NCBI RefSeq assembly: GCF_000284415.1 | Contig: NC_017059.1 | Coordinates: 642,021 to 706,020 of the forward strand | Direction: 5' to 3' | Length of the DNA stretch: 64,000 bases | Source: Pararhodospirillum photometricum DSM 122 | GTDB taxonomy: Bacteria; Pseudomonadota; Alphaproteobacteria; Rhodospirillales; Rhodospirillaceae | Part shown: in pieces, positions 8,540 through 63,710 of the stretch | Layout of the letters: each line of letters starts with the position of its first letter | Numbering within the stretch: the first letter of the stretch is position 1 | Notes under the pieces: generated by a model | Told to the model about the DNA's origin: nothing | Database searches by the model: none | What the model saw: the letters and a program-made list of their open reading frames with translations, nothing else | Position numbers and translations under genes: made by a program

Positions 8540-9445
8540 TCAGGGACCGAGGGGTCTGGGGAGGCCCGCCTCCCCAGCCTTCCTTTTCTCCTGCTCGCCC
8601 GGTCCCACGCCCACCCGCCGCCAAATATCCTCCGCCCTCTCCCCCGCCGCCCGCAACGCTGCCAAAGTCAAAGACTGGTCACGCTTGGCGTAGCGCTTGC
8701 CATCCGGGCCGACCAGCAGGGCATGGTGATGATAGCGCGGCGTTGGCAGGCCGAGCAGGGCCTGGAGCAGCCGATGCACGTGGGTCGCCTCGAACAGATC
8801 GCGGCCGCGCACCACGTCGGTGACGCCCTGGGCGGCATCGTCCACGGTCACGGCCAGATGGTAGCTAGTGGGGGTATCCTTGCGGGCGAGCACCACGTCG
8901 CCAAACAGCAGGGGCGTCGCCTCGACCTCGCCGGCCGTGGCGTCGTGCCACGTCAGGGGGCCGGTGCGCGCCAACGCCGCCGCGACATCCAGACGCAGGC
9001 AAGCCGGCTGCCCCGCTTGGTGGCGGGCCGCGCGCTCCTCGGCCGAGAGGGCGCGACAGGTGCCGGGATAGGGCGGCCCCTCGGGGCCATGGGGCGCTGA
9101 CAGCCGCCGCGCCGCCTCGGCCTCAATCTCCTTGCGGGTGCAAAAACACGGGTACAGCAAGCCCATCGCGTCCAGCCGATCAAGCGCGGCCCGGTAGACA
9201 GCAAAGCGCCGGGACTGGATCCAAGGCGGCTCCTCCCAGCGCAGGCCAAGCCACGCCAAATCCTCGAAAATCGCCTGGACAAAAGCGGGACGGCAGCGGC
9301 TGGAGTCGATGTCTTCCAGGCGCAGCAGAAACCGCCCCTGCGCGCGTTGGGCAAGCTCGTGCGCGAGAAGGGCGGAATAGGCGTGCCCAAGGTGCAAGAG
9401 ACCGGTCGGGCTGGGGGCAAAGCGGCTGATCACACCCACACTCAT
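8540..9445 (-). CDS. gluQ: glutamyl-Q tRNA(Asp) synthetase
   Basis: A GluRS-like protein of 301 residues without an anticodon-binding domain. It has RFAPSPTGLLHLGHA (HIGH motif), the zinc ligands C-F-C-T-R-K ... Y-P-G-T-C-R, and KRYAKRD replacing KMSKS. These mark GluQ, which attaches glutamate to queuosine at the wobble base of tRNA-Asp. I chose the ATG at 9445. A GTG at 9517 would add 24 residues not expected in the family. The last ~13 residues come from repeat copy (a), so the natural C-terminus probably ended near VGPGEQE. It converges on lrp. Confidence 0.9.
   Translation of the reverse strand: MSVGVISRFAPSPTGLLHLGHAYSALLAHELAQRAQGRFLLRLEDIDSSRCRPAFVQAIFEDLAWLGLRWEEPPWIQSRRFAVYRAALDRLDAMGLLYPCFCTRKEIEAEAARRLSAPHGPEGPPYPGTCRALSAEERAARHQAGQPACLRLDVAAALARTGPLTWHDATAGEVEATPLLFGDVVLARKDTPTSYHLAVTVDDAAQGVTDVVRGRDLFEATHVHRLLQALLGLPTPRYHHHALLVGPDGKRYAKRDQSLTLAALRAAGERAEDIWRRVGVGPGEQEKRKAGEAGLPRPLGP
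8548..8583 (+). repeat. palindromic element copy (a), inside the gluQ 3' end
   Basis: GAGGGGTCTGGGGAGGC, CC, GCCTCCCCAGCC. It lies between convergent lrp and gluQ, entirely within the gluQ reading frame, where it encodes the last residues KAGEAGLPRPLGP. Confidence 0.9.
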
Positions 9446-9587
9446 CTCGGAAGCGAACGAAAACGGATCCAAAAATCGCACCACGTTCTTGACAAAACTG
9501 TCATCCCCGCTTTTCACCAGAGTCAGTACAAGGTACCATGCCCGAGCGACGGAAAACCATGCCTGGGAAAGGATGGTGGCCTTGCGG

Positions 9588-10145
9588 ATGTCAAAGATGG
9601 ATGCCTGCCCGGCGTTGGTGCTGAACGCGGACTTTCAGCCGCTCAGTTATCTGCCGCTGTCCCTGTGGTCCTGGCAAGAGGCCGTTAAGGCCGTGTTCAT
9701 GGACCGGGTCAACGTGGTCAGTGAATACGACTTTATCATCCGCTCTCCCACCCTGGAGATGCGCCTTCCCAGCGTCATTTCCCTCAAGGAATACGTTCCC
9801 ACCGCGCCTCGGGCGGCTTTTACGCGCTTTAACGTCTTTTTGCGCGATGGTTTTACCTGCCAGTACTGCGGCACGCGCCTGCCCGCCCACGATCTGACCT
9901 TTGACCATGTGGTGCCGCGCTCCAAGGGGGGGCGCACCACCTGGGATAACGTTGTGGCGGCGTGCGGGCCTTGCAACATGCGCAAGGCCAACCGAACCCC
10001 GCGCGAGGCCAGTATGCCGTTGCGAAAACCGGCCATTGAGCCCACCGCCCATTGGCTGCGCAACGTTGGACGTTCCTTCCCGCCAGGCTATCTTCACGAA
10101 AGCTGGCGGGATTTTCTTTATTGGGACGTGGAACTCGAAACCTGA
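9588..10145 (+). CDS. HNH endonuclease family protein
   Basis: About 185 residues with a classical HNH core: FTCQYCGTRL, LTFDHVVPRSKGG, NVVAACGPCNMRKANR. Two CxxC pairs would bind a structural zinc, and the DHVVPRSKGG histidine is the expected catalytic residue. The N-terminal MDACPALVLNADFQPLSYLPLSLW is strongly conserved among alphaproteobacterial single-copy HNH proteins. Candidate starts are ATG at 9573, 9588 and 9597, and only the 9573 one has an adjacent AAAGG. Function is uncertain: this chromosomal family is not clearly linked to restriction or homing. It converges on the MFS gene. Confidence 0.8.
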   Translation: MSKMDACPALVLNADFQPLSYLPLSLWSWQEAVKAVFMDRVNVVSEYDFIIRSPTLEMRLPSVISLKEYVPTAPRAAFTRFNVFLRDGFTCQYCGTRLPAHDLTFDHVVPRSKGGRTTWDNVVAACGPCNMRKANRTPREASMPLRKPAIEPTAHWLRNVGRSFPPGYLHESWRDFLYWDVELET

Positions 10146-10159
10146 CCCCTACGGAACCG

Positions 10160-10190
10160 AGGGGTCTGGGGAGGCTAGCCTCCCCAGACG
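10160..10190 (+). repeat. palindromic element copy (b)
   Basis: GAGGGGTCTGGGGAGGC, TA, GCCTCCCCAGAC, between convergent HNH and MFS genes. The MFS stop codon (10175-10177) falls inside it, so the last MFS residues HVWGG are repeat-encoded. Confidence 0.88.
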
Positions 10191-11422
10191 TGCTTTTTTT
10201 CCAACGCGAGCGCTCGCAGCAAGGCCAGCAGCCCGCCGCCCAAAAACACCAAAACCACCGCCATCCCAGCGCGCTGCGAGCCGCTGAGGTCGGTGACCAC
10301 CGCCACCCCGAGCGGCCCGAGAAACGCGGTGACCCGACCGGTCATGGCATAAAGACCAAAGATCTGGCTGCGGTGCTCTGGCGCAGCGGTGCGGGCCAGC
10401 CAAGTCCGCCCGGCCGCTTGGACCGGCCCGAAGAAAGTCCCCATCCCCACCGCCAAGCCGACAAACCACGCCGCCTCGCGCACCAGCAAAACCGCCGTGC
10501 CAAAGCCCAGAAGGCCAGCCAGCCCCAGCACGATGGTGCGCCCCGAGCCCAGGCGGTCGTCGATCCACCCGAAGGCGGCGGCGCCAAGGCCGGCACTGAC
10601 GTTGAGCGCGATGCCAAACAAGATGATCTGATCAAAGCCAAGACCAAAGGTTCCCGCCGCGTAAATGCCACCAAAGGCGAACAAGGTGGTGATGCCATCG
10701 GTATAGAGCAACGAGGCCAGCAAGAACCACGCCAGCGCCGGCGATTGCCGCAAAACGGCCCGCACCGAGCGGCGTTCCGGGGGCGGCGCGAGGCGAGGCG
10801 GCCCCTCGGGCACAAAAACGAACAAGGGCCAGCCGAACACCACAATCCAGACCGCGACCAGCAGGCAGGTGGCCCGAACTGGCTCGGCCACCGCGGGATC
10901 CAGCCCCCACGGCGGCGGTTGGCTTTGGATCAGGGCCAACGCGCCCAGCAAGCAGGCCAAGCCGCCGGCATAGCCCAGGCCCCAGGCCCAGCCCGACAGG
11001 CGGCCCAGCCGGTGCGCCGGGCCGAGATCGGGCAGCATGGCATTATAGAAGACACAGCCGACCTCAAAAGCCACGGTTGTGACCCCGGCCAGGATCAAGG
11101 CCGGCAGCAATAACGCCGGATCGGGCCGCACCAAGGCCATGAGCGCCGTGCCACTCACCACCACGCTCATGGTCACCGCCAACCACGGCTTGCGCTGCCC
11201 CCGGCGATCGGCGCGGGCCCCGGCCCACGGGGCCAGGACGGCAATAGCCAGCCCGGCCGCCGCCATGGCATAGCCCCAAGCAGCGGTCCCCGTTGCCGGA
11301 TCGGGCGCGAGGGCCCGGGTGACATAGGCCGAAAAAACAAAGGTGGTGATGACGGTGGGATAGGCCGAGTTGGCGAAATCGAACAAAGCCCAGGCGACCG
11401 CGGCGGCAGGGCGGGGGGCCAT
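10175..11422 (-). CDS. MFS transporter, UMF1/Atg22-like
   Basis: A 415-residue inner-membrane carrier with about 12 hydrophobic segments. WALFDFANSAYPTVITTFVFSAYVT at the N-terminus is the signature of the UMF1 (Atg22-like) MFS family. Other family sections are GARADRRGQRK in loop 2-3 and FFGPVQAAGRTWLARTAAPEHRSQIFGLY in the second half. Atg22 exports amino acids from the yeast vacuole, but bacterial substrates are unknown. Start ATG at 11422. The thiolase stop is 3 bases upstream, on the same strand, so it is probably in one operon with thiolase and bioY. Confidence 0.85.
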   Translation of the reverse strand: MAPRPAAAVAWALFDFANSAYPTVITTFVFSAYVTRALAPDPATGTAAWGYAMAAAGLAIAVLAPWAGARADRRGQRKPWLAVTMSVVVSGTALMALVRPDPALLLPALILAGVTTVAFEVGCVFYNAMLPDLGPAHRLGRLSGWAWGLGYAGGLACLLGALALIQSQPPPWGLDPAVAEPVRATCLLVAVWIVVFGWPLFVFVPEGPPRLAPPPERRSVRAVLRQSPALAWFLLASLLYTDGITTLFAFGGIYAAGTFGLGFDQIILFGIALNVSAGLGAAAFGWIDDRLGSGRTIVLGLAGLLGFGTAVLLVREAAWFVGLAVGMGTFFGPVQAAGRTWLARTAAPEHRSQIFGLYAMTGRVTAFLGPLGVAVVTDLSGSQRAGMAVVLVFLGGGLLALLRALALEKKHVWGG

Positions 11423-11424
11423 GG

Positions 11425-12570
11425 CTACAAGGCTCCGGTTTCAAACAAGGCCGCGAGACCCAGGCCGGCCGCGCTGGAGACCAGGACGGCCCCACGTCGT
11501 CCCGGAGCGCTCATCAGGTCGTGAAACAACCGAACGGTCAGCAAGGCGCCGACGGCCCCCACCGGGTGGCCCAACGCCAAGGTGCCGCCTCCCGGATTCA
11601 CCGTGTCGGTGCCAAGGCCCAACTGGTTGAGGCAAGACAGCACCTGCCCAGCATACACTTCATTGATTTCAATCTGGTCCAGGCTGTCGAGCCCCAGGTC
11701 GCCGGCCCGGCGACACAGCCGGCGCGCGGCCGGGACGGCGCCTAGGCCCGAGAGCCCGGGATCCACCCCGCCGGCCACGCCATCAATCAGGCGCATCGCC
11801 CCCGGTGCACCCAAGGCGCGGGCCAAGGTGGCCTCCATGACCACAACGGCGGCGGCGCCATCGGCGGGGACGGCGCTGTTGCCGGTGGTTACGGTGCCTT
11901 CGGCGGCCAGGGGAGGTAGACGGGCCAGTCGGTCCACGCCCAGGCCGGCCCGCGGCGCCTCGTCGCCCTCGGGGTCGCCGCCCAGGACCGAGACGATCTC
12001 GAAGTCGAAGCGGCCGGCCTCGCGGGCGGCAAGGGTGCGGGTGTGGCTGGCGGCGGTGTAGGCATCTTGCTGGGCCCGATCGATGCCGCAAGCCCGGATC
12101 ATGGCTTCGGCGGCCTGAACCACCGAGCTGTCGGCGCCGGCATCGCCGCAAAACGGCGTTTGGACCATGAAACGTGGCGTGGCCGTGGCCGAGAGCGGGC
12201 GCTCGACCATCCATGGCGCGGTGCTGGTGCTTTCAACGCCACCAGCCAGGATCAACCGGGCCGCCCCGGCCTGGATCATCCACAGCGCTTGCAAGATGGC
12301 TTCCAGACCCGAGGCGCATTGCATGTCCACGCTCACGGCGGGCACCTCGGGCGGCAGGCCGGCCTCCAGGGCACAGGCGCGGGCGATGTTGCCGCCGGAG
12401 CGGGCATTGCCCACGATGACCCGGTCCACTTCGGCTTCCTGCAAGCCGCAGTCGTCGAGCAAGGCGCGCAGGACCGGCGCCATCAGCCGAGGCGCCGAGA
12501 GGGTGCGAAACTGACCGCCGGCACGACCAATGGCCGTGCGCCGGGCCGCAAGGATGACCGCTTCGGGCAT
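11425..12570 (-). CDS. thiolase family protein (acetyl-CoA acyltransferase)
   Basis: A 381-residue thiolase. The nucleophile cysteine sits in SVDMQCASGLEAI, the second motif is NPGGGTLALGHPVGAVGA (catalytic histidine), and NEVYAGQ replaces the usual NEAFA. It catalyses either thiolytic cleavage of 3-ketoacyl-CoA or condensation of acyl-CoA. The usual final CGGGxG with the second cysteine is changed to SSAAGLGLA, so one standard catalytic cysteine is missing. A biosynthetic or altered activity is therefore possible. The start follows GGGGAGA. It sits between bioY (17 bases upstream) and an MFS gene, all on the same strand. Confidence 0.85.
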   Translation of the reverse strand: MPEAVILAARRTAIGRAGGQFRTLSAPRLMAPVLRALLDDCGLQEAEVDRVIVGNARSGGNIARACALEAGLPPEVPAVSVDMQCASGLEAILQALWMIQAGAARLILAGGVESTSTAPWMVERPLSATATPRFMVQTPFCGDAGADSSVVQAAEAMIRACGIDRAQQDAYTAASHTRTLAAREAGRFDFEIVSVLGGDPEGDEAPRAGLGVDRLARLPPLAAEGTVTTGNSAVPADGAAAVVVMEATLARALGAPGAMRLIDGVAGGVDPGLSGLGAVPAARRLCRRAGDLGLDSLDQIEINEVYAGQVLSCLNQLGLGTDTVNPGGGTLALGHPVGAVGALLTVRLFHDLMSAPGRRGAVLVSSAAGLGLAALFETGAL

Positions 12571-12587
12571 GGGGTGTTCTCCCCGGG

Positions 12588-13193: not shown

Positions 13194-13237
13194 GCCGCCG
13201 TTGGTTCGTCATCGTCCAGTCATCAGTGGGAAAGAGT

Positions 13238-13268
13238 AAGGCTGGGGAGGCGAGCCTCCCCAGACCCC
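13238..13268 (-). repeat. palindromic element copy (c)
   Basis: AAGGCTGGGGAGGC, GA, GCCTCCCCAGACCCC, upstream of bioY in the opposite orientation to copy (d), 44 bases away. The two copies together form a larger inverted arrangement filling the bioY-MFS gap. Confidence 0.88.
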
Positions 13269-13311
13269 ACCTTCCCTTTGGCCCTGCGATCGAAGCGAAG
13301 CTCTATGAATG

Positions 13312-13345
13312 GAGGGGTCTGGGGAGGCAAGCCTCCCCAGCCTTC
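13312..13345 (+). repeat. palindromic element copy (d)
   Basis: GAGGGGTCTGGGGAGGC, AA, GCCTCCCCAGCCTTC. Its right edge overlaps the stop codon of the DHA2 transporter at 13344. Confidence 0.88.
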
Positions 13346-14816
13346 ATTTCCTCAAAGTCCAGTGGGTGAGTACCAGCACGGTCCCGCCCAAAAGAGCCGT
13401 CGCCGACAGCATAACAATGGAAAAAGCCCGATCAAACGCCAGCCGGGCGGCCTCGACCAACGCATCGCCATCGGGAAGCCCCGCCGCCACGCGCAGCGCG
13501 TCGTCAAGGCTCTCGCGGGCCACGACCGGGACCTCCGGCGGCAAGATCAGCGCCGCCGCATAAAGGACCGATAGCAAGCAGCCCAGCAAGGCCACCCCCA
13601 AGGCGCCGCCCAACTCGTACGACACCTCCTCGATCGACGCGGCCATGCCGGCCCGGCTCGGCGGCGCGTTGGCCAAAATGGCGCTCGACGCGCCGGTGGC
13701 CGCCGCGCCGAACCCCAGGCCCAAGAGGGTGAGCGAAACCAGCGTCCCCGCCTCGGCCCGGCCATGCAACAGCCCCAATCCGGCGCTGCCCAGGGCACAC
13801 AGCGCCAAGGCCACAATCAACACCCGCTCACTGCCCCAGCGCGTCACCCCCAGCCCCGCCACCGGCCCGGCGACCAGCGAGGCCAACGGCAGCGGCAGAA
13901 GCAACAAAGCGGCCTCCAGCGGCGACAGCCCCCCCACCAACTGCACATGCTGAACAAACAGGTACTCCGCTCCGATCAGCGCGATCGAGGCAACAACCGC
14001 CCCCAGCACCCCGCCGGCAAACGCGGTGTGGCGAAACAGGCCAAAGTCGATGAGAGGCGAGGCCTGCCGGGCCTGACGGCGCACGAAAACCACCCCGGCC
14101 AGCCCGCCGATGGCCAGGGCCACCAGGGCGGCGGTCCCCGAGGGCACGGGACGGCTCGCCTCCTTCAACGCATAGGTCAGGGCAACCAAGGTGATGAGGA
14201 TCAGCCCCGACCCCATGCCATCCCAGGGCCGGTCACTACACGGCGCGACCCGGGGCACCAGGGTAAGCGCTGGCAGCAACACCAGCAGCACGATCGGCAC
14301 GTTGATCAGGAACACCGAGCCCCACCAGAACTCTTCCAGCAGCAGCCCCCCCAGCACCGGCCCCAGCATGGCGCCGCCCGAAGCGACCGCCGACCACACG
14401 CCAATGGCCAAGGCGCGTTCGCGCTCGTCGGTGAAGGTGTGGCGGATGATCGACAACGTGGCCGGCATCATCAAAGCGGCGCCGACCGCAAGGCAGGCCC
14501 GCGCGCCGATAAGGAGGGCTGGACTCGGGGCAAACGCGGCCAGGAGGGAGGCGAGGCCAAACACGACAAGGCCCAGGAGAAACAAAGGTTTGGGTCCTAA
14601 CCGGTCGCCCAGGGTGCCGGTGCCCGGGAGCAAGCCGGCCACCACCAGCCCATAGGTGTTGACAATCCACAGGCTCTCGACCGCCGACGCTTCCAGGGCT
14701 GCGGTGAGGCGAGGCAGCGCGGTGTAGAGGACGGTCATGTCCACAACGATCAGGAAAAGCGCGGAGGACACCAGGACCAGGACGAGCCAGCGGCGGGTCG
14801 GGGAGAGGGGAGGCAT
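13344..14816 (-). CDS. MFS multidrug efflux transporter, DHA2 (QacA/SmvA-like)
   Basis: A 490-residue, probably 14-helix carrier. It has D-M-T-V-L-Y-T-A-L-P in helix 1, GDRLGPKPLF between helices 2 and 3, and the motif-C-like GPVLGGLLLEEFWWGSVFLINVP. This matches DHA2 drug:proton antiporters such as QacA and SmvA, which expel cationic biocides or methyl viologen from the inner membrane. Start ATG 14816 follows AAAGG. The TTG two codons earlier is less likely. Alone between two palindromic repeat copies; no adjacent regulator. Confidence 0.88.
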   Translation of the reverse strand: MPPLSPTRRWLVLVLVSSALFLIVVDMTVLYTALPRLTAALEASAVESLWIVNTYGLVVAGLLPGTGTLGDRLGPKPLFLLGLVVFGLASLLAAFAPSPALLIGARACLAVGAALMMPATLSIIRHTFTDERERALAIGVWSAVASGGAMLGPVLGGLLLEEFWWGSVFLINVPIVLLVLLPALTLVPRVAPCSDRPWDGMGSGLILITLVALTYALKEASRPVPSGTAALVALAIGGLAGVVFVRRQARQASPLIDFGLFRHTAFAGGVLGAVVASIALIGAEYLFVQHVQLVGGLSPLEAALLLLPLPLASLVAGPVAGLGVTRWGSERVLIVALALCALGSAGLGLLHGRAEAGTLVSLTLLGLGFGAAATGASSAILANAPPSRAGMAASIEEVSYELGGALGVALLGCLLSVLYAAALILPPEVPVVARESLDDALRVAAGLPDGDALVEAARLAFDRAFSIVMLSATALLGGTVLVLTHWTLRK

Positions 14817-14840
14817 GAACAACGGCCTTTCGGGGGAGGG

Positions 14841-14874
14841 AAGGCTGGGGAGGCTCGCCTCCCCAGACCCCTCG
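14841..14874 (-). repeat. palindromic element copy (e)
   Basis: AAGGCTGGGGAGGC, TC, GCCTCCCCAGACCCCTC, between the MFS start and the comM stop (both genes on the minus strand). Confidence 0.88.
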
Positions 14875-17021: not shown

Positions 17022-17096
17022 TGGTGGGCGCGACTGGGATTGAACCAGTGACCCCTACGATGTCAACGTAGTGCTCTCCCGCTGAGCTACGCGCCC
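17022..17096 (-). tRNA. tRNA-Val (GAC anticodon)
   Basis: 75 bases with encoded CCA. The anticodon stem CTACG/CGTAG encloses loop TTGACAT, so the anticodon is GAC, valine. Acceptor GGGCGCG pairs with CGCGCCC. The T-arm is GGTTCAATCCC. An identical gene lies inverted at 18246-18320, and the flanks also match, giving a long inverted repeat. Confidence 0.97.
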
Positions 17097-18245: not shown

Positions 18246-18320
18246 GGGCGCGTAGCTCAGCGGGAGAGCACTACGTTGACATCGTAGGGGTCACTGGTTC
18301 AATCCCAGTCGCGCCCACCA
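18246..18320 (+). tRNA. tRNA-Val (GAC anticodon)
   Basis: Identical in sequence to the 17022-17096 gene, on the opposite strand. The ~55 bases upstream (GTAAAAAGCCGACCTCCGCTGCGGC) match too and probably hold the promoter. Reading its 3' part as protein gives the well-known false peptide GATGIEPVTPTMS. Confidence 0.97.
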
Positions 18321-19748: not shown

Positions 19749-19961
19749 GCTGGCGCCTGTGGTTAGGGGCGAAAACTCATATTTTAATTCGGATATCCTG
19801 CTTTTACAGGCCCTTTATTCCTTAGGGCAAAATCCGTCTCGATCCCTTACGGCGGTTGGGGGCACGCTGAGGAGAAGGTCGGGAAGGCGCGGCCTGCCCA
19901 GACCCCTGTCTCCTGAAGACGCATGATCCCGCGAGTACGGTCTTTTTGAAAGATCAATATC

Positions 19962-21767: not shown

Positions 21768-23829
21768 CGACAGGGCACTCGAGGAAACGAGGGGCCTGGG
21801 AGGGCCATCCCTCCCCAGCCTTCTCCCCGGCGGCCACGCATGCCCTGGGGGAAGCGGTGCGCAAGCTTGATCCCCGACGGTTGGCCCATAACCCGGTGCT
21901 GTTCACCACAGCGGTGATCGCCCTGCTGTGTACCGTTTTGCTGATCAAGGCCCTGGTGGTGGGCGACACCGCCCTGGCGCCCGGCGTGCTGCTGCAAATT
22001 GTGGTGTGGCTGTGGGGCACGGTGCTGTTTGCCACCTTTGCCGAGGCCCTGGCCGAGGGCCGGGGGCAGGCTCAGGCGTCGAGCCTGCGTCGGGCCCGCA
22101 CCGACACCCAGGCCAAGCGCCTGTTGGCCTCGGGCGAGCGCGAAATCGTGCCGGCCCCGTCCCTGCGGGCGGGAGACCGGGTGCTGGTCGAGGCGGGGGA
22201 TCTGATCCCCGGCGACGGCGACGTGGTCGAAGGCATTGCCCTGGTCGATGAAAGCGCCATCACCGGCGAATCGGCTCCGGTGATTCGCGAGTCGGGCGGC
22301 GATCGCTCGGCGGTCACCGGCGGCACCCGGATCGTTTCCGACAGCATTGTCGTGCGCATCACCACCAACCCGGGCGAAAGCGTCCTCGACCGGATGATTG
22401 CCCTGGTCGAAAACGCCAAGCGCCAGAAAACCCCCAACGAGATCGCCCTGGGCATTTTGCTGGTCGGCCTGACCTTGGTGTTCTTGCTGGTGGTGTTGAG
22501 CTTGCCGGCTTTTGCCGGGCTGGCCGGGGTCAGCGTGCCGGTGGCCTTCCTGGCGGCCTTGTTCGTCACCTTGATCCCCACGACCATCGGCGGCCTGCTC
22601 TCGGCGATTGGCATTGCCGGCATGGACCGGCTGGTCCGCTTCAATGTCATCGCCAAATCGGGGCGCGCGGTGGAGGCGGCTGGCGACGTGGACGTGCTGC
22701 TCTTGGACAAGACCGGCACCATCACCTTGGGCAACCGGCAGGCGGCGGCGTTTTGGCCGGTGTCGGGGGTGAGCGAGCGCGAGTTGGCGGAAGCGGCCCG
22801 GCTGGCCTCGCTGGCCGACGACACCGCCGAGGGGCGCTCGATCGTCGCCCTGGCGACCGAGCGCTTTGGCGGGGGGCCGAGTCCCTGGACCGCACCGGCA
22901 TGGTCTTTCAGCCCTTCACGGCGCAATCGCGCATGAGTGGCGTGGACCTGCCCGACGGCAGCGCGATTCGCAAGGGGGCCCCTGATCGTCTCCTCGCCCT
23001 GCTCGCCGAGCCGGCGCCGCGTGACCTGATCCGCGCGGTGGAAAAGGTGGCCAAGGAGGGCGGCACCCCCTTGGTGGTGGCGCGCGATCGCCGGCCGCTG
23101 GGGGTGGTGGATCTGAAGGACATCGTCAAGCCGGGGCTGCGCGAGCGCTTCCAGACCCTGCGGCGCATGGGGATCAAGACGGTGATGGTGACGGGCGACA
23201 ACCCGCTCACCGCCGCCGCCATCGCCGCCGAGGCTGGGGTGGACGATTTCCTGGCCGAGGCGACGCCGGAGCGCAAGCTGGAGCTGATCAGAGAGTATCA
23301 AGGCGACGGCCGTCTGGTCGCCATGTGCGGCGACGGCGCCAACGATGCCCCGGCCCTGGCCCAGGCCGACGTGGGGGTGGCCATGAACACGGGCACCCAG
23401 GCGGCGCGCGAGGCCGGCAACATGATTGATCTCGACAGCGACCCGACCAAGCTGATCGAAATTGTCATGATCGGCAAACAGCTTCTCATGAGCCGGGGCG
23501 CCCTGACCACGTTTTCCATCGCCAATGACGTGGCCAAGTACTTCGCGATCCTTCCGGCCCTGTTTCTGCCGGCTCTGCCACAGCTTCAGGGGCTCAACAT
23601 CATGGGACTGCACAGCCCGGAAAGCGCCATCCTGTCGGCCCTGATTTTTAACGCCTTGATTATTATTGCGCTGGTTCCGCTGGCGTTGAAGGGGGTGCGT
23701 TACCGCCCGGCCCCGGCTTCGGTGCTGCTGGCCCGCCATGGCCTGCTCTATGGCGGGGGCGGGCTGATTGCCCCCTTCCTGGGCATCAAACTGATTGATG
23801 TCGTGGTGGTTGCCGTGGGGCTGGTGTGA
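21764..23829 (+). pseudogene. kdpB: potassium-transporting P-type ATPase subunit KdpB, broken by one frameshift; repeat inserted at its 5' end
   Basis: Frame 1 covers the transmembrane start, actuator domain ([12 protein letters not shown]) and the phosphorylation motif [12 protein letters not shown] (Asp about residue 315). It then breaks after ERFGGG. Frame 2 continues as [63 protein letters not shown] to 23829. One missing G in the G6 run at 22871-22876 explains the break exactly. KdpB is the ATP-hydrolysing pump subunit. Residues 9-21 ([13 protein letters not shown]) are encoded by a palindromic repeat copy inserted between the ATGA start and the usual [16 protein letters not shown] helix. 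Confidence 0.9.
21790..21824 (+). repeat. palindromic element copy (g), inside kdpB coding sequence
   Basis: AGGGGCCTGGGAGGGCCATCCCTCCCCAGCC in two stretches: a variant copy of the dispersed element. It lies in frame within the first 21 codons of kdpB, without a stop. Confidence 0.8.
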
Positions 23830-27970: not shown

Positions 27971-28007
27971 GAGGGGTCTGGGGAGGCCCCCGCCTCCCCA
28001 GCCTCCC
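27971..28007 (+). repeat. palindromic element copy (h)
   Basis: GAGGGGTCTGGGGAGGC, CCCC, GCCTCCCCAGCCTCC, between convergent kdpE and the DUF2155 gene. It ends 3 bases before the latter's stop codon. Confidence 0.9.
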
Positions 28008-30174: not shown

Positions 30175-30299
30175 GAAGGCTGGGGAGGCGGGCCTCCCCC
30201 AGACCCCTCCGTTCCTGGGACTTCTGTGACGGTGGGGTCTGGGGAGGCCCGCCTCCCCCAGACCCGAGGGGGTCTGGGGGAGGCCGCGCCTCCCCGGCC
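30175..30299. repeat. cluster of three palindromic element copies (i1-i3)
   Basis: Copies at 30175-30209 (minus orientation), 30232-30265 (plus) and 30266-30299 (plus, GGGGTCTGGGGGAGGC) lie head-to-tail and head-to-head between NDUFA12 and hisG. The whole gap 30043-30444 holds nothing else I recognise apart from a possible hisG promoter. Confidence 0.88.
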
Positions 30300-35681: not shown

Positions 35682-35718
35682 GAGGGGGTCTGGGGAGGCC
35701 CGCCTCCCCAGCCTTCCC
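35682..35718 (+). repeat. palindromic element copy (j)
   Basis: GAGGGGGTCTGGGGAGGC, CC, GCCTCCCCAGCCTTCCC, between convergent rng and the methyltransferase. It ends right at the methyltransferase stop codon (35719-35721). Confidence 0.9.
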
Positions 35719-40272: not shown

Positions 40273-40306
40273 AAGGCTGGGGAGGCGTGGCCTCCCCAGA
40301 CCCCTC
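40273..40306 (-). repeat. palindromic element copy (k)
   Basis: AAGGCTGGGGAGGC, GT, GGCCTCCCCAGACCCCTC, between the oxidoreductase and the convergent outer-membrane protein gene. Confidence 0.88.
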
Positions 40307-41434: not shown

Positions 41435-41468
41435 CGGCCGGGGAGGCACGGCCTCCCCAGACCCCTCG
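41435..41468 (-). repeat. palindromic element copy (l)
   Basis: CGGCCGGGGAGGC, AC, GGCCTCCCCAGACCCCTC, at the tetR 3' end. The rest of the gap 41237-41434 holds no clear signal. Confidence 0.85.
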
Positions 41469-43240: not shown

Positions 43241-43275
43241 GAGGGGTCTGGGGAGGCGCGCCTCCCCAGCCTTCC
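43241..43275 (+). repeat. palindromic element copy (m)
   Basis: GAGGGGTCTGGGGAGGC, GC, GCCTCCCCAGCCTTCC, between the cdf promoter and the tRNA-Val pair. The remainder of 43276-43444 has no recognised feature. Confidence 0.9.
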
Positions 43276-43444: not shown

Positions 43445-43519
43445 TGGTGGGCGATGTAGGGATTGAACCTACGACCCCACCCGTGTGAAGGGTGTGCTCT
43501 CCCGCTGAGCTAATCGCCC
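43445..43519 (-). tRNA. tRNA-Val (CAC anticodon), copy 1
   Basis: 75 bases with CCA. Anticodon stem CACCC/GGGTG with loop TTCACAC gives anticodon CAC (valine). Acceptor GGGCGAT, T-arm GGTTCAATCCC. Identical to the next gene. Confidence 0.97.
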
Positions 43520-43544: not shown

Positions 43545-43619
43545 TGGTGGGCGATGTAGGGATTGAACCTACGACCCCACCCGTGTGAAGGGTGTGCTCT
43601 CCCGCTGAGCTAATCGCCC
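43545..43619 (-). tRNA. tRNA-Val (CAC anticodon), copy 2
   Basis: Identical to the gene exactly 100 bases away, the pair forming a tandem duplication with a 25-base spacer. Confidence 0.97.
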
Positions 43620-45417: not shown

Positions 45418-47085
45418 TCAGCCCCGTACCCGCGTCACCAACGCCTCCACCGCCTCGCGCAGGGTCTCGGTCTCGCGAACAGCCTGGAGCGCGCTGTCTT
45501 GCAGACTGTGGGCCGCGGCTCCACTGGCGGCAATGTTCTCGCTCAGGGTGGCCAGGGCATCGCGCACGACCGTGGTGCCTTGGGCCGCCACCTGAAGCGA
45601 GCGCGCAAGATCGGCAGCCGCTGTGTTCTGGGTATCGATCGCCCGGGCGATGGCTTCGTCTGTCTCGTGCAGGGCGCCGATGGTGGCGCGGATGGTGCCC
45701 ATGGCCGTCGCGACCCCCTGGGCTTCGCCGCGAATGCCGGCGATCTGCTGGGCGATCTCGTCGGTGGCCCGGGCGGTCTGGCTGGCCAGGACCTTGACCT
45801 CGCCGGCCACCACCGAAAACCCTTTGCCAGCCTCGCCGGCCCGCGCCGCTTCGATGGTGGCATTGAGGGCCAGCAGATTGGTTTGGGCGGCAATGGTTGC
45901 GATCAAATCCATGATCTGGCCAATACGCTCTGTCGCGGTGGTCAGGCTGGCGATCTGGTGCTCGCCGGCCGCGGCTTGGTCAACGGCCTGGGCGGCGATC
46001 TGGGTGGAGCGGTGCACCTGATCGTGGATGTCACCGATCGACGCCGCCAGTGCCCTTGTCGCCTCGGCCCCCCGCTGCACCGCTTGGGCGGTCTCGGCCG
46101 AGGCCTGGGCGGCGGTGGTGGCGCGCCGGGTTTCGGCGAGCGCGGTCCGCGCCACGCCGGCTGTTCCGGTTTCAACCTCGCCGCTGTGGCGCGCCAGGGA
46201 GGCGATCAGCGGCGTCGCGGTCTCCTCGAACGCTGCGGCCACTGCCAGCACCGCCGCGCGTTGTTTGTCGTGGGCCTCCTGGTCGGCTTGAGCGGCCTGG
46301 GCCCGCAACTGGGCATGGGCGTGGGCGGCATCGCGAAACCCGGCCAGGGCGCGGGACAACGCGCCGATCTCGCTGCGCTGGTGGCCGCAGGGCAGAAGGC
46401 AGCTCTGGTCGCCCTCGGCCAGACGCGGCATCACGGTGATCATCTGCCCCAAAGGACGCACGATGGAGCGGGAGATAACGAGGGCAATACCAACGATCAC
46501 CAAGCTCAGGGCGCCAACACCGGCCAGCAACACGAGGCCGCGCCGGGTAAACGCGGCGTCCACATCGTCGATATAGATCCCGGTGCCAATCACCCAGCCC
46601 CAAGGAGCGAACACCTGGAGATAGGAAATTTTGGGGGCGTTGATCTCCGTTCCCGGACGCCGGCCCATATAGCCGACAAAGCCCTGGCCCTGGGCGCGCG
46701 CCACCGCAACAAACTTGCGATACATAAAATCGCCGGCCGCGTCCTTGAGACCCAGAACCGACGTCCCCACCGCGTTGGCGCGATGGGGGTGCATGAGCAA
46801 GATGCCGTCGAGATCATTGATCCAGAAATAGTTGGTCTTGTCGTAGCGCAACTCCTGGAGGCGGGCCAACGCGTCCGCCTTTGCCGTGGCCTCGGGCACG
46901 CCGGCGCGAACCCGCTCATGCGCCGCCTGGACCAGACTCACCGCCAGTTCCACGAACTCGCGGGTTTTGATTTTGCGCTCCTCCAGCAAACCGTCGCGCG
47001 CATCATAAAGGCTCAAGAGGCCAGAGACGGTCATGCCGAGCAAGGCGGCCATCACAATCAAAAGAAGACGCAGAGATATTTTCAT
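45418..47085 (-). CDS. methyl-accepting chemotaxis protein (sCache domain)
   Basis: A 555-residue chemoreceptor. Two membrane helices ([20 protein letters not shown] and a second one after the sensor) frame a periplasmic single Cache-type domain with [15 protein letters not shown] and [18 protein letters not shown]-like segment near [12 protein letters not shown], then a signalling domain with the hairpin [41 protein letters not shown]. It lacks the usual pentapeptide tether. Ligand unknown, possibly small organic acids. Start ATG 47085. Divergent from the diguanylate cyclase. Confidence 0.92.
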
Positions 47086-50147: not shown

Positions 50148-50180
50148 AAGGCTGGGGAGGCTCGCCACCCCAGACCCCTC
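50148..50180 (-). repeat. palindromic element copy (n)
   Basis: AAGGCTGGGGAGGC, TC, GCCACCCCAGACCCCTC. One mismatch breaks the palindrome. It overlaps the last bases of cbbO. Confidence 0.8.
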
Positions 50181-52485
50181 ATGGGGTTTGGGTGAGGCGG
50201 GCGAAGAGGAGGGGGAGGCGTTCCGGGAGGCGGCGAAGGTGATCGACAATGGTGTAGTGTCCCGGGCCAAAAATCCTTTCGACATACTGATCGGCCAGAG
50301 GGTCGAGCGTGAGGCAGTAGGTGTGGACACCAGACTCTCGGAGTTCGTCCACGGCCTTACGGGCATCTTGGCGTAGTGTTTGGGGGTCGCGTTCATCGAC
50401 ATCGGCCGGTTCACCATCGGTCACCAACAGCAGCAGCTTGCGTCGTTCGCGCCGATGCCGAAGGTGGGCCCCGGCGTGGCGCAGGGCCGCCCCCATGCGT
50501 GTGGAGAGGTCGCCGCTCATGCCCGCCAGACGGCTTTTCGCTTGATCGTCAAAGCGTTGTTCAAACCCCTTGAAGAGGGAGTAGCGCACGTCGTGCCGGC
50601 CATTCGAGGCGAACCCATGTAAGGCGTAAGGATCGCCGATCCCTTCTAGGGCTGTCGCTAACAGGGTAGCTGCCTCGCGGGAGAGATCAAGCACGGTTTT
50701 GTCATCGTCCCCCCGCACCCGCTCGTTGGTGGACGCCGATAGATCAAGCAGGACCAGGACGCAAAGGTCTCGCCGGTGGAGGATGATCCGTTGGGTGATC
50801 CGGGGGTCGGGGGGGAAGCCTAGGCGCAGATCCACCATGGCTTCCACGGCCGCATTAAGGTCGAGGACATCGCCGTCTTCGAGTTTGCGCTGACGTGTGG
50901 CACCGTGCGGGCGCAGGCGGTCAATGAGGCGCTTGATCTGGTGACCAACGCCCCGATGCTCGCTTAACACAGTATCAATGCGTGTTGGATCCCCGGCCGG
51001 TGGACGGCGTTCGCTCACACTGACCCACTGCGGCCGATAGCGTTGCGTTCGGTAGTCCCATTCGGGGTAGAGGACGGGGTCGGAAACCGCGGGCTTGCCG
51101 TCCCGTTGATTGTACGAAATTCCCTCGTCCTCATAAGGGAAAAGCTCGGTTCGCAGAACCCAGATTTCTTGGGCGTCATCGCCCGCTGTTTCAACATCGC
51201 ATTCGTTGATGAATTCCATCAGCCCCACACGCCGACGCACTTGCGGCGCAGAGGCCGCTGGCCCTGGTACGAGAGGGATCCAAAGGCAGCGGTTGTCATC
51301 GCGATACGGGATCCTCAGGGTCTCCAGGAGGCGCACACTGGGGACCGCCTGGCGCTTCGCGAGCGCTTCATGCAGAGCCAGACCAAGGGGCAGGGAGAGG
51401 TCCCCCTGGCCTTGGGCAAAGGCCGCGTGAAACCGGGTGGCAATGGCCTCCAACTCTGGATCGCCGGGCAGGCAAGCGGGATCGAGCAATGCCAGGGCGC
51501 AGCGTTCGATCAGGTCGAGGCCTGGGTGCTCGGGGGGAGGCAAGCCTTCGGGCATCAGGGAGCGCCAGAGCTGGCGCAACCCCGGAAACAAGGTCCAGGC
51601 CCGTGCTTCGACGCGGGCATCTTCCATCACGCCAATCAAAAATCGTTGGCTGGGTGAAAAGAGGGCGGCATCTGGCAGGGGGACGGCATAAAGCTGATGC
51701 GCGGCAAGGTGGGCGGCCATCGCTCGGTAGAGGTCAAAGCCGCTTCGGCCCCGGATATCGTCCACCGCATCGGGGAGGGACAGAATCTCGTCCTCAAGGA
51801 AGGGCCGCGTGTGGGCCGTTTGGGCGGCGAGGGGGCGCAGAGGGAAATCCCGCCCCCACAGTGCGCGCAGATAAGAAGACAGCCGGCGTTGGCTGTTGAT
51901 GAGCAGCGTTCCCCGGCGCTCACGCTGGAGCACGGCAAGGCTGTCTTGGGACTGGAGGGCGAAATAGGCGCTCTGGCGCGCCGGGTCGCGTCGATGCGTC
52001 TCCGCCCCAAAGTCGGCCCAGCGCCCCAAGCCCGATACCGTGAGTTGGCGCAAAAGCTCGTCTAGATGCTCCAGCATGGGGCGCAGGCCTCGGGGGGCCT
52101 TCGCCGCAGTGCGGTGTAAAAGCTGCAAGTAGGCGCGTACCAGATTAAGGTCGCCCAGGCGTGCCGCCGCGATGGGCAAAGTCGCGAAGACCAGCGCCAG
52201 CACCTCCCCCGAGGTCATGGAGGCAAGCCGCATCACGGCTCCCACGCTGTCTTCCACGACCTCTTCGCCGCACTCGCGCGCGACCTGAGGTAGTGCCTGA
52301 AGGTATATTTCGACGAGAGATGGCTCTTTGCCCAGGGCGGCCAAGGCGCGAGCCCCGGCGAGGTATTGTCGCAAGCCGCCGGGAGAGAACAGGCGGCTCG
52401 CCTCGTCGAGGGTCGTGTCAAGGGTTGGGTCAAGGCCCGGCGCCTGCGCGGCCAGGAAGCCCCGATCTTCTTCAGAGATCTTCAT
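50179..52485 (-). CDS. cbbO: RuBisCO activase component CbbO (vWA-domain protein)
   Basis: A 768-residue protein. The C-terminal von Willebrand A domain has the MIDAS motif DLSAST (D-x-S-x-S) and FKGFEQRFDDQ. The helical N-terminal region is typical of NorD/CbbO. CbbO works with the AAA+ hexamer CbbQ to remove inhibitory sugar phosphates from form I RuBisCO. It follows cbbQ on the same strand (44-base gap), the last gene of cbbLSQO. Its 3' end overlaps a repeat copy. Confidence 0.92.
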   Translation of the reverse strand: MKISEEDRGFLAAQAPGLDPTLDTTLDEASRLFSPGGLRQYLAGARALAALGKEPSLVEIYLQALPQVARECGEEVVEDSVGAVMRLASMTSGEVLALVFATLPIAAARLGDLNLVRAYLQLLHRTAAKAPRGLRPMLEHLDELLRQLTVSGLGRWADFGAETHRRDPARQSAYFALQSQDSLAVLQRERRGTLLINSQRRLSSYLRALWGRDFPLRPLAAQTAHTRPFLEDEILSLPDAVDDIRGRSGFDLYRAMAAHLAAHQLYAVPLPDAALFSPSQRFLIGVMEDARVEARAWTLFPGLRQLWRSLMPEGLPPPEHPGLDLIERCALALLDPACLPGDPELEAIATRFHAAFAQGQGDLSLPLGLALHEALAKRQAVPSVRLLETLRIPYRDDNRCLWIPLVPGPAASAPQVRRRVGLMEFINECDVETAGDDAQEIWVLRTELFPYEDEGISYNQRDGKPAVSDPVLYPEWDYRTQRYRPQWVSVSERRPPAGDPTRIDTVLSEHRGVGHQIKRLIDRLRPHGATRQRKLEDGDVLDLNAAVEAMVDLRLGFPPDPRITQRIILHRRDLCVLVLLDLSASTNERVRGDDDKTVLDLSREAATLLATALEGIGDPYALHGFASNGRHDVRYSLFKGFEQRFDDQAKSRLAGMSGDLSTRMGAALRHAGAHLRHRRERRKLLLLVTDGEPADVDERDPQTLRQDARKAVDELRESGVHTYCLTLDPLADQYVERIFGPGHYTIVDHLRRLPERLPLLFARLTQTP

Positions 52486-56252: not shown

Positions 56253-56287
56253 TCTGGGGAAGCGGGGCTTCCCCAGGCCCCTCCCTT
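56253..56287 (-). repeat. palindromic element copy (o)
   Basis: ATCTGGGGAAGC, GG, GGCTTCCCCAGGCCCCTC: a variant core with AAGC/GCTT. It ends at the lexA stop codon. It sits between convergent cbbR and lexA. Confidence 0.8.
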
Positions 56288-57012
56288 CAATACTGGCGGA
56301 TGATGCCAACAAGCCTTCCTTGGATCCGCACCCGGTCGGGCCCATGGATCATGGTTTTGAAGGCTTTGTTGGCCGGCTCCAGGGCGATGGAATCTCCCTT
56401 GCGCCGCAGTCGCTTTAACGTCGCCTCTTCTTCATCCACCAAAGCCACGACGATGGTACCGTTTTCGGCGGTGTCGCAGCGGCGCAAGATGGCGATGTCG
56501 CCGTTCAAGATCCCGGCTTCAATCATCGACTCTCCCTCGACGGTCAACGCGAAGTGTTCTCCTCCGCCCGTGAGCAAGGCGGTGGGGACGTCGATATGGG
56601 CGGTGGGATCATTGAGCGCTGCGACGGGAGTGCCGGCTGCGATCTTTCCCAAAAGGGGGAGGGTGACCGATGAGGCCGGTGTGGCTTCTGTGACCACTGC
56701 GGCGGGGAGCGACGGGGTAAAGTTTCCCTCGATCACTTTGGGCGAAAAGCGTGTTTCAGGATCCCGGGCGCGTGGCAGAGCCTCTTCCGGCACTTGATTG
56801 TCGGGCAGGCGCAAGACTTCCAGCGCGCGGGCCCGGTGGGGAAGGCGACGCAAAAAGCCCCGTTCCTCCAGTCCCTTGATCAGGCGATGGATCCCGGATT
56901 TCGATTTCAGTTCAAGGGCATCACGCATTTCGTCAAACGAGGGGGATACCCCGGTCGTGCGCAGCCGCTGATCGATAAAGGACAGCAGCAGGTATTGTTT
57001 GCGCGTCAGCAT
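56287..57012 (-). CDS. lexA: SOS repressor LexA
   Basis: A 241-residue repressor. N-terminal winged helix [54 protein letters not shown]-terminal peptidase has [21 protein letters not shown] (catalytic Ser) and [14 protein letters not shown] (Lys). The self-cleavage Ala-Gly lies in [10 protein letters not shown]. It represses DNA-damage genes until RecA triggers autocleavage. An SOS box lies 48 bases upstream of the start. It converges on cbbR. Confidence 0.96.
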
Positions 57013-59797: not shown

Positions 59798-59836
59798 AGG
59801 GGCTGGGGAGGTTGTGTCTCCCCGGCTCTCCCTTCC
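59798..59836 (+). repeat. palindromic element copy (p), degenerate
   Basis: GAGGGGCTGGGGAGGTTGTGTCTCCCCGGCTC in two stretches, upstream of the copper ATPase gene. A further partial copy, GGCTGGGGCATCCCTCGGTCC, adjoins at 59763. Confidence 0.65.
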
Positions 59837-59891
59837 CCAAACGGGATGCGCTCCGGGGTGTTTCCCTCGGCCAACTCAGGAGAGGCAGAAC

Positions 59892-62089: not shown

Positions 62090-62096
62090 ATGCCTG

Positions 62097-63657
62097 ATGT
62101 TGCTTCCCGGAGACAACGGTCATCAGGGACCGCTGGACCGCTTTGCCCTTTTCGTTGCGGGCCTGTCCCCCGTTACCTTGACCCTTACGGCCCTGGGGAC
62201 CCTGGGGGTGGGCATTGGGGCCGGGCTTGCGCTTGGCGTGTTTTGGGCCCGCCCGGCCGATCCTCCCCCTGCGGCCCAGCGGCCCCAGGCGCCCGCTGTC
62301 GTTGCCCAGGCTCCCGCCCCGGTAGCCGTCCCCTCCGAACGGACGGTGGCCCAGTACACGCCGCCGCCACTGCCCGGCCCGGCGCCCTCGTCTGCCGGGC
62401 TCGCCCCTGTTGTGGCCGTTGCCCCGCCCGCGCCGGGCTCCAGTGGGCCCGGGATCAACGATTCGGGGGCACCCGTGGCCCTGGATCCCTCTGCGCCCGC
62501 CCTGATGCCCAGCGTCCTCACCGCCTTGCCGCCTTTACCTCTCGAAGACAAGCAGGCGGCAGCACCCGACCTTCCATCCCCCGAGCTTTCCCCCGCCCCC
62601 GGGGCCGCGGTGGAGATCAGCCGGCCGGTGCCGCCGCCACCGCCGCCGCCGCCCGCGCGCTGGGCCACCCGAGGCGTCTCCCCGCCGATTTCCGGCGCTT
62701 CAGCGCTGGCGGCCCCCTCTGCGGAGGCGGCGCCCGCAGCGTCCGTCGAGGGTCTTGCCATGGCGGCGCCTGCGGGTGCTTTTCTTGCGGAAGACGGCGA
62801 GGGCGGACACGTTCTTGAAGAAAGGCTGGAAGGCGAGGTGCGCGACTCCCTGCCCGGTGTCGCGGTGCCGTTGACCTCAACACTGGCCGCCTTTCCGCCG
62901 GTGGTGGCCCCTGGGCCTGAAGGCACGCCATGGCGGCGTAACGCCGTGCCGGTGGCGGCGTGGCATCCGCCGGCCATCGCCGTGGTCATTGATGACCTCG
63001 GCGTGGATCGCACCCGCACGCGTGCTGTGGCCGCCCTGCCAGGGCCGATCACCATGGCCTTTCTGCCCTACGCCGAGATCTTGCCCGATCAAATGCGCGA
63101 TGGGCGCAAGCAAGGCCACGAGCTTCTGATCCACATGCCCATGGAGCCACAAAACAGCAGCATCAATCCAGGCCCGGATGCCCTCAAGGTCGGTCTGTCG
63201 GACGACGAAATTTTGGCCAGGGTCCGGCGCAATCTTGACCGTGGTGCGGGCTATGTTGGCATTAACAACCATATGGGCAGCCGTTTTTACCACCGATGCC
63301 CGGGGGATGTCCGTGGTGATGGCCGAACTCAAGCGCCGGGGGCTGGTGTGGCTGGACTCGGTTACCTCGCCCCAGACCGTGGGCCTCTCCCTGGCCCGGG
63401 CCGCCGGGGTCCCCCATGCGGGACGGGCGGTTTTTCTCGATAATGTGCCCGAGCGCGCTGCGGTGGATCGGCAATTGGCCAACCTCGAAGCCGCCGCCCG
63501 CCGCAATGGGGTCGCCATTGGCATTGGTCACCCCAAGGATGCCACCATCCAGGGGTTGCGCGCTTGGCTGCCTAGCCTTGCCCGTAAGGGGATTACCCTG
63601 GTACCCGTGAGCGCCTTGATGCGTGTCGAGACCACGACGGTGGCGCGACGGCCCTAA
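62097..63657 (+). pseudogene. divergent polysaccharide deacetylase (YibQ-like), broken by one frameshift
   Basis: It has an N-terminal membrane segment (LTLTALGTLGVGIGAGLALGVF), a long proline/alanine-rich linker (residues ~55-250), and a C-terminal divergent polysaccharide deacetylase domain: IAVVIDDLGVDRTRT, MAFLPYAEILPDQM, GHELLIHMPMEP, GINNHMGSRF. It then breaks. One extra T in the T5 run at 63284-63288 accounts for it, since removing it gives SRFTTDARGMSVVMAELKRRGLVWLDS, up to the stop at 63657. The family is uncharacterised, probably cell-wall related. Start ATG 62097 follows GGAG. Confidence 0.84.
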
Positions 63658-63676
63658 AGGCTGCCCTTCTCTTTTC

Positions 63677-63710
63677 GAGGGGTTTGGGGAGGCCGCGCCT
63701 CCCCAGCCTT
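63677..63710 (+). repeat. palindromic element copy (q)
   Basis: GAGGGGTTTGGGGAGGC, CGC, GCCTCCCCAGCC, between convergent deacetylase and the last gene, touching the latter's stop codon. Confidence 0.85.

Follow-up and report, generated by a model that had tools for sequence, protein, structure and literature searches.

A GC-rich palindrome of Pararhodospirillum photometricum DSM 122, a probable new family of REP-like repeats

Background

The closest described systems are three families of short repeats and one regulatory signal. As far as the report of Di Nocera 2013 (PMC3733652) is drawn on here, the CGTC-tagged REPs of the alphaproteobacteria are short, high-copy intergenic palindromes that lie near the 3′ ends of genes and between convergent genes, form dimers mostly 20-100 bp apart and have no associated transposase. 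The REPINs of Pseudomonas fluorescens SBW25, in the sections used here of Bertels and Rainey 2011 (PMC3116915), are inverted doublets with a spacer that are better conserved than singles and are predicted to fold into a single hairpin. The TMECO/PIT triplex motif of E. coli, in the corresponding parts of Holder 2015 (PMC4666352), combines a G/C-rich purine repeat with a hairpin and is intergenic, occurring in both orientations and in inverted pairs. Intrinsic (Rho-independent) terminators, finally, are GC-rich hairpins with a one-sided T-rich tract near stop codons.

The palindrome analyzed in this work has each of these features and nonetheless differs from each system. Against the CGTC-tagged REPs, as described in the same portion of PMC3733652, its tag is GAGGGGT(C) instead of CGTC, TGTC or CCTC, its 10-bp stem has C-G and T-A as outer pairs where those REPs have A-T in the first two positions, its loop is mostly 2-3 instead of 4-5 bases long, and its tail is CCTT followed by a T-rich stretch instead of CCA. 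Unlike the SBW25 REPINs (PMC3116915), it comes without a RAYT match, and its singles outnumber its doublets. In TMECO/PIT the additional purine strand is 3′ of the hairpin, but in this palindrome it is 5′; copies are far more numerous here, and they stand at stop codons, whereas the sections of PMC4666352 drawn on report no preferred gene distance. Unlike those of an intrinsic terminator, its orientations are independent of transcription. The palindrome appears to represent a new family within a known class of bacterial repeats. It offers, within a single organism, a way to test two questions about REPs: by what means they spread when no REP transposase can be found, and whether their placing behind stop codons reflects target choice, tolerance or function.

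Methods

The window, to which all positions refer, is the whole stretch of 64,000 nt analyzed (contig NC_017059.1, positions 642,021 to 706,020 of the forward strand). The genome was further sampled in two sets of 20 stretches, the first partly picked for pairs already seen there and the second, a 400-kb sample, placed without looking. From 163 raw matches, 16 with more than two mismatches and weak flanks were removed before the first placement count, and stretch L161 was left out of the placement counts. The consensus was derived from 138 copies, a set that excludes unoriented copies, edge copies and those with more than two mismatches. For a later set of 256 copies in 864 kb, the flank score and the cut-off were slightly changed; this set contains 250 copies after removal of unoriented or edge copies.

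Results and discussion

Structure of the unit and copies in the window

The unit has the consensus GAGGGGT-CTGGGGAGGC-N2-3-GCCTCCCCAG-CCTT-T-rich, with the tag GAGGGGT 5′ of the stem and CCTT 3′ of it. The loop was initially described as two variable bases, and it often is; across the 138 copies it is mostly 2 or 3 bases long, with other lengths also occurring. All 18 places listed in the preliminary description hold a copy, with 10-nt arms that are perfect in nine, carry one mismatch in three, two in three and three in three. The estimate of about 18 had missed a degenerate minus-strand copy at 19879..19901, with four mismatches and largely retained flanks.

Perfect-core copies are found on the plus strand at 8556..8577, within the final codons of gene 8540-9517 as called on the minus strand (tRNA-synt_1c), at 10166..10187 and 35690..35711, each in a convergent interval, and at 43248..43269; another lies on the minus strand at 14845..14866. 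Two further perfect cores form an inverted doublet, whose left arm (13242..13263, minus strand) faces a right arm (13319..13340, plus strand) separated by 3 nt from the stop codon of the MFS gene 13344-14816. The arms are also perfect in two convergent intervals, at 27978..28001 (plus strand, 4-nt loop) and 40277..40299 (minus strand, 3-nt loop). One mismatch is present at 41438..41460 (minus strand), at 50152..50173 (minus strand; the VWA-domain gene 50179-52485 stops 5 nt away) and at 63684..63706 (plus strand, convergent interval). A second doublet, in a divergent interval, pairs two copies with two mismatches each, at 30180..30201 (minus strand, left arm) and 30239..30260 (plus strand, right arm), and is adjoined by a degenerate third copy with three mismatches (30275..30297, plus strand). 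The copy at 56254..56276 (minus strand), where the stop codon of the LexA-like gene 56287-57012 is 10 nt away, has two mismatches, both arms having changed together; three mismatches are found at 21796..21818 and in a degenerate copy at 59803..59825, both on the plus strand. Four of the listed places thus make up two inverted pairs, 13242/13319 and 30180/30239, which had been overlooked. Eight minus-strand genes were said to stop inside or within 3 bases of a copy; they do end at copies, and the distance holds for all of them only if the flanks are counted: in six, 2-10 nt separate core and stop, in gene 10175-11422 the core contains the stop, and in gene 8540-9517 it lies wholly inside the called reading frame.

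Copy number and placing relative to genes

With up to three mismatches and a 2-nt loop, the window holds 10 copies, against 0.00 in 100 shuffles. A relaxed pattern gave 750 perfect-arm matches genome-wide (1 for its control), the search used for the window gave 449 copies (0 for a reversed control), and scaling up from the sample placed without looking puts the total at ~1,050. The unit is, like a REP, a high-copy palindrome of 20-40 bp. In the same sample, 87 of 98 clusters lie between called genes and four fall in called genes, no more than 47 nt from the 3′ end; the other seven were unplaced. The core is at most 30 nt from a stop codon in 60 of the 87 intergenic clusters, where the null gave a mean of 6.9 (sd 2.5) and a maximum of 18 in 1000 simulations, bearing out the proposed clustering at stops. 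The preliminary description had named few copies elsewhere, or no enrichment at stops, as findings that would speak against it; when both were checked, copies proved to be genome-wide and stop-enriched. Copies occupy 26 of 40 convergent, 49 of 156 tandem and 10 of 42 divergent intervals of this sample. As in REPs, they are mostly intergenic and near 3′ ends, in convergent and tandem intervals. GC skew in the sampled stretches follows no pattern from which a replication-strand bias of the copies could be read.

This distribution invites the reading that the copies are the standard intrinsic terminator of the species, kept alike by selection or gene conversion and not by mobility. The hairpin is GC-rich and followed on one side by a T-rich tract (T 0.58-0.77 at +7 to +10), a copy is present in 26 of 40 convergent intervals, copy-holding convergent intervals are so short (median 59 nt, n=65) that a second terminator would hardly fit, and a core-like hairpin is seen in 2 of 28 convergent intervals of the sister species. 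However, single copies in tandem intervals run 47 with and 39 against transcription (p 0.45), and those against it are without a T tract, so the copies are not simply oriented terminators: a hairpin with a U tract in the direction of transcription is not their general arrangement. Copies also sit mid-interval between divergent genes and in all six rRNA spacers found, the doublet spacers are related to one another, and the strong hairpins present in 7 of 28 sister-species convergent intervals differ in sequence. We therefore consider the standard-terminator reading distinctly unlikely, and reject oriented termination as the main account because copy orientation is indifferent to transcription. 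A bidirectional transcript end or RNA-processing site, as originally suggested, may apply instead; judged from sequence, it is compatible with both placing and orientation indifference. An apparent hypervariability of loops among the rRNA spacers was dropped because the rRNA region of the assembly is fragmentary and loop types are linked with other differences.

The arms are perfect in 152 of 250 oriented copies, a uniformity that would also suit a binding site for a dimeric chromosome or nucleoid protein. Convergent placing fits such a site, as supercoils meet there, and E. coli BIMEs are sites for gyrase or IHF. The half-sites are, however, separated by 2, 3 or other numbers of bases, which is unusual for a dimer site, and the flanks are conserved yet asymmetric, making a protein site very unlikely. 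With copies of more than two mismatches and three rRNA-spacer copies left out, only 5 of the 100 changes in stems come with a compensating change, which gives no sign of lasting selection on pairing. RNA-level selection through wobble pairs (44 on the element strand, 19 on the other) was dropped: the excess is confined to stem positions 2 and 10 (28 versus 3), and by transcript strand the counts are 20 and 15.

Inverted doublets

Among 36 multi-copy clusters, 31 are of the -+ type, that is, tag-to-tag inverted doublets, and one -++ cluster contains such a doublet; three are +- and one is --. In the sampled stretches, 41-78 bp separate the two core starts of a doublet. The doublet spacers resemble one another (mean similarity 0.386; 0.087 after shuffling), and partner loops are equal in 19 of 32 doublets, where 5000 shuffles gave a mean of 4.3 and a maximum of 12; among neighboring copies outside doublets they are equal in 16 of 171. 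Partner tails, unlike the loops, agree at 93 of 160 positions, which is at chance level (shuffle mean 85.6, sd 4.7). Perfect arms are more frequent in members of doublet clusters (55 of 65) than in singles (95 of 183; p 1.8e-6), a comparison in which pair detection itself somewhat favors good copies. The one doublet that was folded, with its surroundings (13225..13360, plus strand), forms one long hairpin (-43.7 kcal/mol as single-stranded DNA; z -7.25 as DNA, -7.74 as RNA). Inverted doublets with a spacer, conservation above that of singles and a single-hairpin fold are all hallmarks of REPINs, and the doublets look like non-autonomous mobile units, for which the initial label "not transposon-like" was too strong.

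Mobilization by an unseen RAYT-type protein, also proposed initially, is not supported, because neither the Y1 transposase model PF01797 (no match) nor NF047646, the REP-transposase model of NCBIfam (best score 11.4 bits against a cut-off of 80), matches in the genome; by these two models, the RAYT gene typical of REPINs was not found. The Y1 model gave no match in the two other genomes with tagged copies either. The consensus of 138 copies lacks the GTAG and CGTC tags present in most, not all, REPs. An inverted-end unit with a related interior might also be a MITE, bearing terminal inverted repeats and mobilized by a DDE transposase. Yet each end is itself a palindrome, and none of the 10 proteins scanned from 20 tag-inward intervals matched a transposase, one of them having no Pfam match at all; a MITE is accordingly very improbable indeed, and an autonomous element flanked by tag-inward copies was rejected on the same scan.

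Related genomes and origin of the family

Of 317 genomes from the order, three contain GGGGTC-tagged copies (539, 12 and 33); an exact-pattern scan of named genomes, which possibly excluded the genome itself, gave no match. Because the family is common in one species but scarce in its sister, ancestral junctions are open to direct reading. Where the two share a gene pair and P. photometricum has a copy in it, the sister interval is copy-free in 16 of 17 cases. Two doublets split gene pairs, with junctions of 129 and 169 nt, that are 2 nt apart or overlap by 4 nt in the sister species; for hemA-prfA, genomes G016 and G020 likewise have the overlap. Doublets have thus entered gene junctions as units with related spacers and matched loops.

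Copy number, intergenic placing, inverted doublets with related spacers, conservation of doublets above singles and insertions relative to the sister species together support the REP-like nature first proposed for the element, and we consider it likely that this is a lineage-specific REP family of the REPIN type. The doublets would have moved as folded single strands, through an enzyme that may have been lost, supplied in trans or of a non-Y1 type, and many singles may be decayed or trimmed products. Only 23 of 178 singles keep a recognizable piece of doublet spacer in their flank (7 of 2000 for random flanks), so doublet descent is not shown for most of them, and multi-copy clusters are scarce in convergent intervals (2 of 35, versus 66 of 170 singles), which makes simple decay in place insufficient without further assumptions. 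Copies just behind stop codons may have been retained because they are harmless there and because the GC-rich hairpin could provide an RNA 3′ boundary, as an exonuclease block or weak terminator; acting in either orientation, this boundary would allow one copy to serve both genes of a convergent pair. An unlikely extension of the REPIN reading is that the repeat multiplied to about a thousand copies with no Y1 transposase involved, through a route such as fold-back copying or replication-fork template switching, which also kept partner loops alike, and that it now forms the customary, orientation-blind 3′ boundary for most convergent pairs in one species.

It is extremely unlikely that the unit is instead an intrastrand triplex motif whose point is DNA structure (genome instability). 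The tag followed a change of both arms to AA in three sampled rRNA-spacer copies, which represent one lineage, and did not follow it in two other AA copies or in five AA-stem copies among eight read in genome G020; triplex covariation was dropped, the tag having tracked the stem in rRNA-spacer copies only. In the parts of PMC4666352 drawn on, the E. coli motif formed no stable triplex in vivo, and R. photometricum DSM 122 is listed there among genomes whose potential triplexes exceed 500 and consist almost exclusively of G and C. In keeping with a triplex, the tag GAGGGGT exactly mirrors TGGGGAG, and in the 138-copy consensus conservation falls just outside it.

Abundance and anatomy of the repeat

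The core palindrome that the preliminary description had placed at 18 positions of the window (bases 642021-706020 of a single contig of 3,876,289 bases) was recovered at all 18, with perfect arms in nine copies and one, two or three mismatches in three copies each, and a further degenerate copy lies at window position 19879. The genome-wide search called for in that description established that copies are abundant outside the window: a pattern allowing three mismatches at most, with the loop set at 2 bases, returned 449 copies genome-wide versus 0 for the reversed control, and a relaxed pattern (perfect arms, loop of 0-4 bases) returned 750 matches versus 1. Direct reading covered the window and about one fifth of the rest of the genome; a 400-kb sample placed without looking held 98 clusters with 109 copies in all, or some 1,050 copies when extrapolated to the whole genome.

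The consensus derived from 138 oriented copies in the first 464 kb runs from a GAGGGGT tag through a 10-bp stem (CTGGGGAGGC / GCCTCCCCAG) to CCTT and a T-rich stretch. In these copies the loop between the stem arms is mostly of 2 or 3 bases, and on the tag side conservation drops sharply outside position -7. The tag is the exact mirror image of the stem segment TGGGGAG. Stem changes are compensated in 5 of 100 instances, a weak compensation that points to recent spread and not to long-term maintenance.

Placement relative to genes

Genes were called with our own codon-usage script, not with a published gene finder; at the eight stop sites originally named, six of the seven calls tested have a Pfam match. 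Of the 98 clusters in the blindly placed sample, 87 fall between called genes. The proposed clustering at stop codons is borne out: a stop lies no more than 30 nt from the core in 60 of these 87, versus 6.9 in the null (sd 2.5; the highest of 1000 simulations gave 18), and a start lies that close in 4 (null 7.6). The proposed preference for convergent genes likewise holds, with copies in 26/40 convergent, 49/156 tandem and 10/42 divergent intervals. In 40 of 50 tandem clusters the upstream stop is at most 40 nt away, and in 6 the downstream start is. Single copies in tandem intervals show little orientation bias: the counts of those running with and against transcription are 23 and 20 in the blindly placed sample, and 47 and 39 for all samples together (p 0.45); the T-rich tract after the stem is present in the copies running with transcription and absent in those running against it. 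The median length of convergent intervals is 59 nt for the 65 that contain a copy and 246.5 nt for the 32 that do not. Both the placing and these short convergent intervals fit a putative role of the copies as an orientation-blind RNA 3' boundary.

Inverted doublets

Multi-copy clusters are predominantly inverted pairs with the tags facing inward (type -+): of 36 such clusters in 864 kb, 31 are -+, one -++, three +- and one --, and in the sample placed without looking 9/11 are -+ and 2/11 +-. They avoid convergent intervals, where 2/35 are found versus 66/170 single copies (p 5e-5). Across the 32 doublets compared, core starts lie 41-78 bp apart; doublet spacers are related to one another (mean similarity 0.386 versus 0.087 when shuffled) and in the first sample came in three lengths, roughly 55, 43 and 35-40 nt. 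The one doublet that was folded, at window 13225-13360, makes one long hairpin, with z -7.25 when treated as DNA.

The loops of the two partners are identical in 19/32 doublets (shuffle mean 4.3, maximum 12 of 5000) and of the same length in 31/32 (shuffle mean 17.3, maximum 27 of 5000). Loop agreement among neighbours outside doublets is 16/171, and comparison with the nearest-spacer relative shows the left loops to be equal in 8/32 doublets, and a doublet's left loop to equal either loop of that relative in 11/32. The loops of both arms therefore have a recent history in common. Against a simple picture, partner tails match at chance level (93/160 positions versus 85.6, sd 4.7). Perfect arms occur in 55/65 members of doublet clusters versus 95/183 singles; part of this difference may reflect ascertainment, because a pair is seen only if both members are recognisable.

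Distribution and comparison with related genomes

Of 317 genomes of the order, three contain copies tagged with GGGGTC (none for the control): P. photometricum with 539 (284 on one strand, 255 on the other), its sister species Pararhodospirillum oryzae NBRC 107573 (G001; contig C14, of 56,330 bases, is NZ_BJZO01000014.1) with 12, two of which form an inverted pair (C10:45247 and C10:45333), and G020 with 33. Among the 34 listed G020 matches to the relaxed pattern, the stem GGGGAAGC is combined with loop CCT in 21, and a G-rich tail replaces CCTT in all eight copies read; a few P. oryzae copies, such as C24:947, carry a T-rich tail of the P. photometricum type. A further genome, G012, is matched 56 times by the relaxed pattern, without the tag. 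Within a collection of named species, which possibly leaves out P. photometricum itself, no match to an exact 34-35-base pattern was found. One P. photometricum copy (G000:C1:2602465, stretch L065) is followed by a second hairpin like the tail of G020 and some P. oryzae copies, and is perhaps an older two-hairpin form.

Sampled P. photometricum DNA and 1.19 Mb of P. oryzae have 100 neighbouring gene pairs in common, 17 of them with a copy in P. photometricum; for 16 of these, the same finder detected no copy in the matching P. oryzae interval. The exception lies between divergent genes (L065 10818): P. photometricum has a doublet there and P. oryzae (C32, about 13647-13833) two degenerate matches of the same orientation with four mismatches each. 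This interval may preserve an older copy common to both species, perhaps since before their split.

With a doublet between them, the genes for a glutamate-synthase-domain protein and an oxidoreductase lie 129 nt apart in P. photometricum, versus 2 nt in P. oryzae, and hemA and prfA (GlutR and RF-1 domains) lie 169 nt apart with a doublet versus a 4-nt overlap. The latter two genes adjoin in 2/5 outgroup genomes (G016 and G020), both with a 4-nt overlap; no hemA match beside prfA was found in the remaining three. At this junction the compact state is therefore ancestral, and the doublet came in by insertion. Over tandem pairs, the length difference (P. photometricum minus P. oryzae) has a median of +56 nt with a copy (n = 8) and -4.5 nt without (n = 26). 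The three convergent pairs compared, each with a copy, have shorter intervals in P. photometricum than in P. oryzae (43 versus 58, 81 versus 138 and 131 versus 222 nt); because they are shorter despite the copy, older sequence seems in these few cases to have been replaced, not merely joined, by it. Strong perfect hairpins occur in 7/28 P. oryzae convergent intervals below 400 nt; their sequences differ, and two resemble the core.

Nature of the element

The suggested REP-like character is well supported as membership of this kind of repeat family. The GTAG and CGTC REPs of PMC3733652 have the same placing as our repeat and are described as inverted dimers with conserved spacers, the CGTC repeats showing no association with transposase genes. 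REPINs are defined in PMC3116915 by inverted doublets that are conserved better than singles, and the organisation seen here is that of REPINs, except for the RAYT. The mobilising RAYT once proposed was not recovered: the Y1 transposase family PF01797, present in 20 of 61 genomes searched, has no match in P. photometricum, P. oryzae or G020, and the REP-transposase model NF047646 reaches at best 11.4 bits in P. photometricum (cut-off 80). Ten genes from tag-inward intervals gave no transposase match, one lacking any Pfam match.

According to PMC4666352, R. photometricum DSM 122 is among the genomes with more than 500 potential triplexes, composed almost only of G and C; for the E. coli motif, earlier work is reported to have detected neither promoter nor terminator activity, and a stable triplex was not found in vivo. 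The sections consulted give no description of the sequence, doublets or placing of this repeat. A literature search for such repeats in the species brought up this article and one on Paracoccus plasmids.

Assembly and other features

The contig is probably a draft-quality scaffold, because its rRNA genes are fragmentary and no usable GC-skew pattern emerges from the sampled stretches. At 26-56 kb the rRNA genes lie in many partial pieces in both orientations (stretches L161, G000:C1:26001-46000, and L051, G000:C1:50001-70000), which suggests misassembled rRNA operons. Six rRNA spacers containing tRNA-Ile were found in sampled DNA (L161, L051 and L058), each with one copy directly behind the tRNA; these copies have an AA stem, a matching AAGGGGT tag and a loop of AA, TC or TT according to spacer type.

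A perfect inverted repeat of 31 bp, with 2 bases in its loop and no relation to the element, occupies window 5479-5542. The stretch at about 45640-45898 is matched by some 30 or more similar stretches of P. oryzae DNA; these matches likely reflect a large chemoreceptor family, since Cache, HAMP and MCP signalling domains are present in the gene at 45418-47061. Two tRNA-Val(gac) genes lie on opposite strands at window 17022-17096 and 18246-18320, and two neighbouring tRNA-Val(cac) genes at 43445-43519 and 43545-43619.
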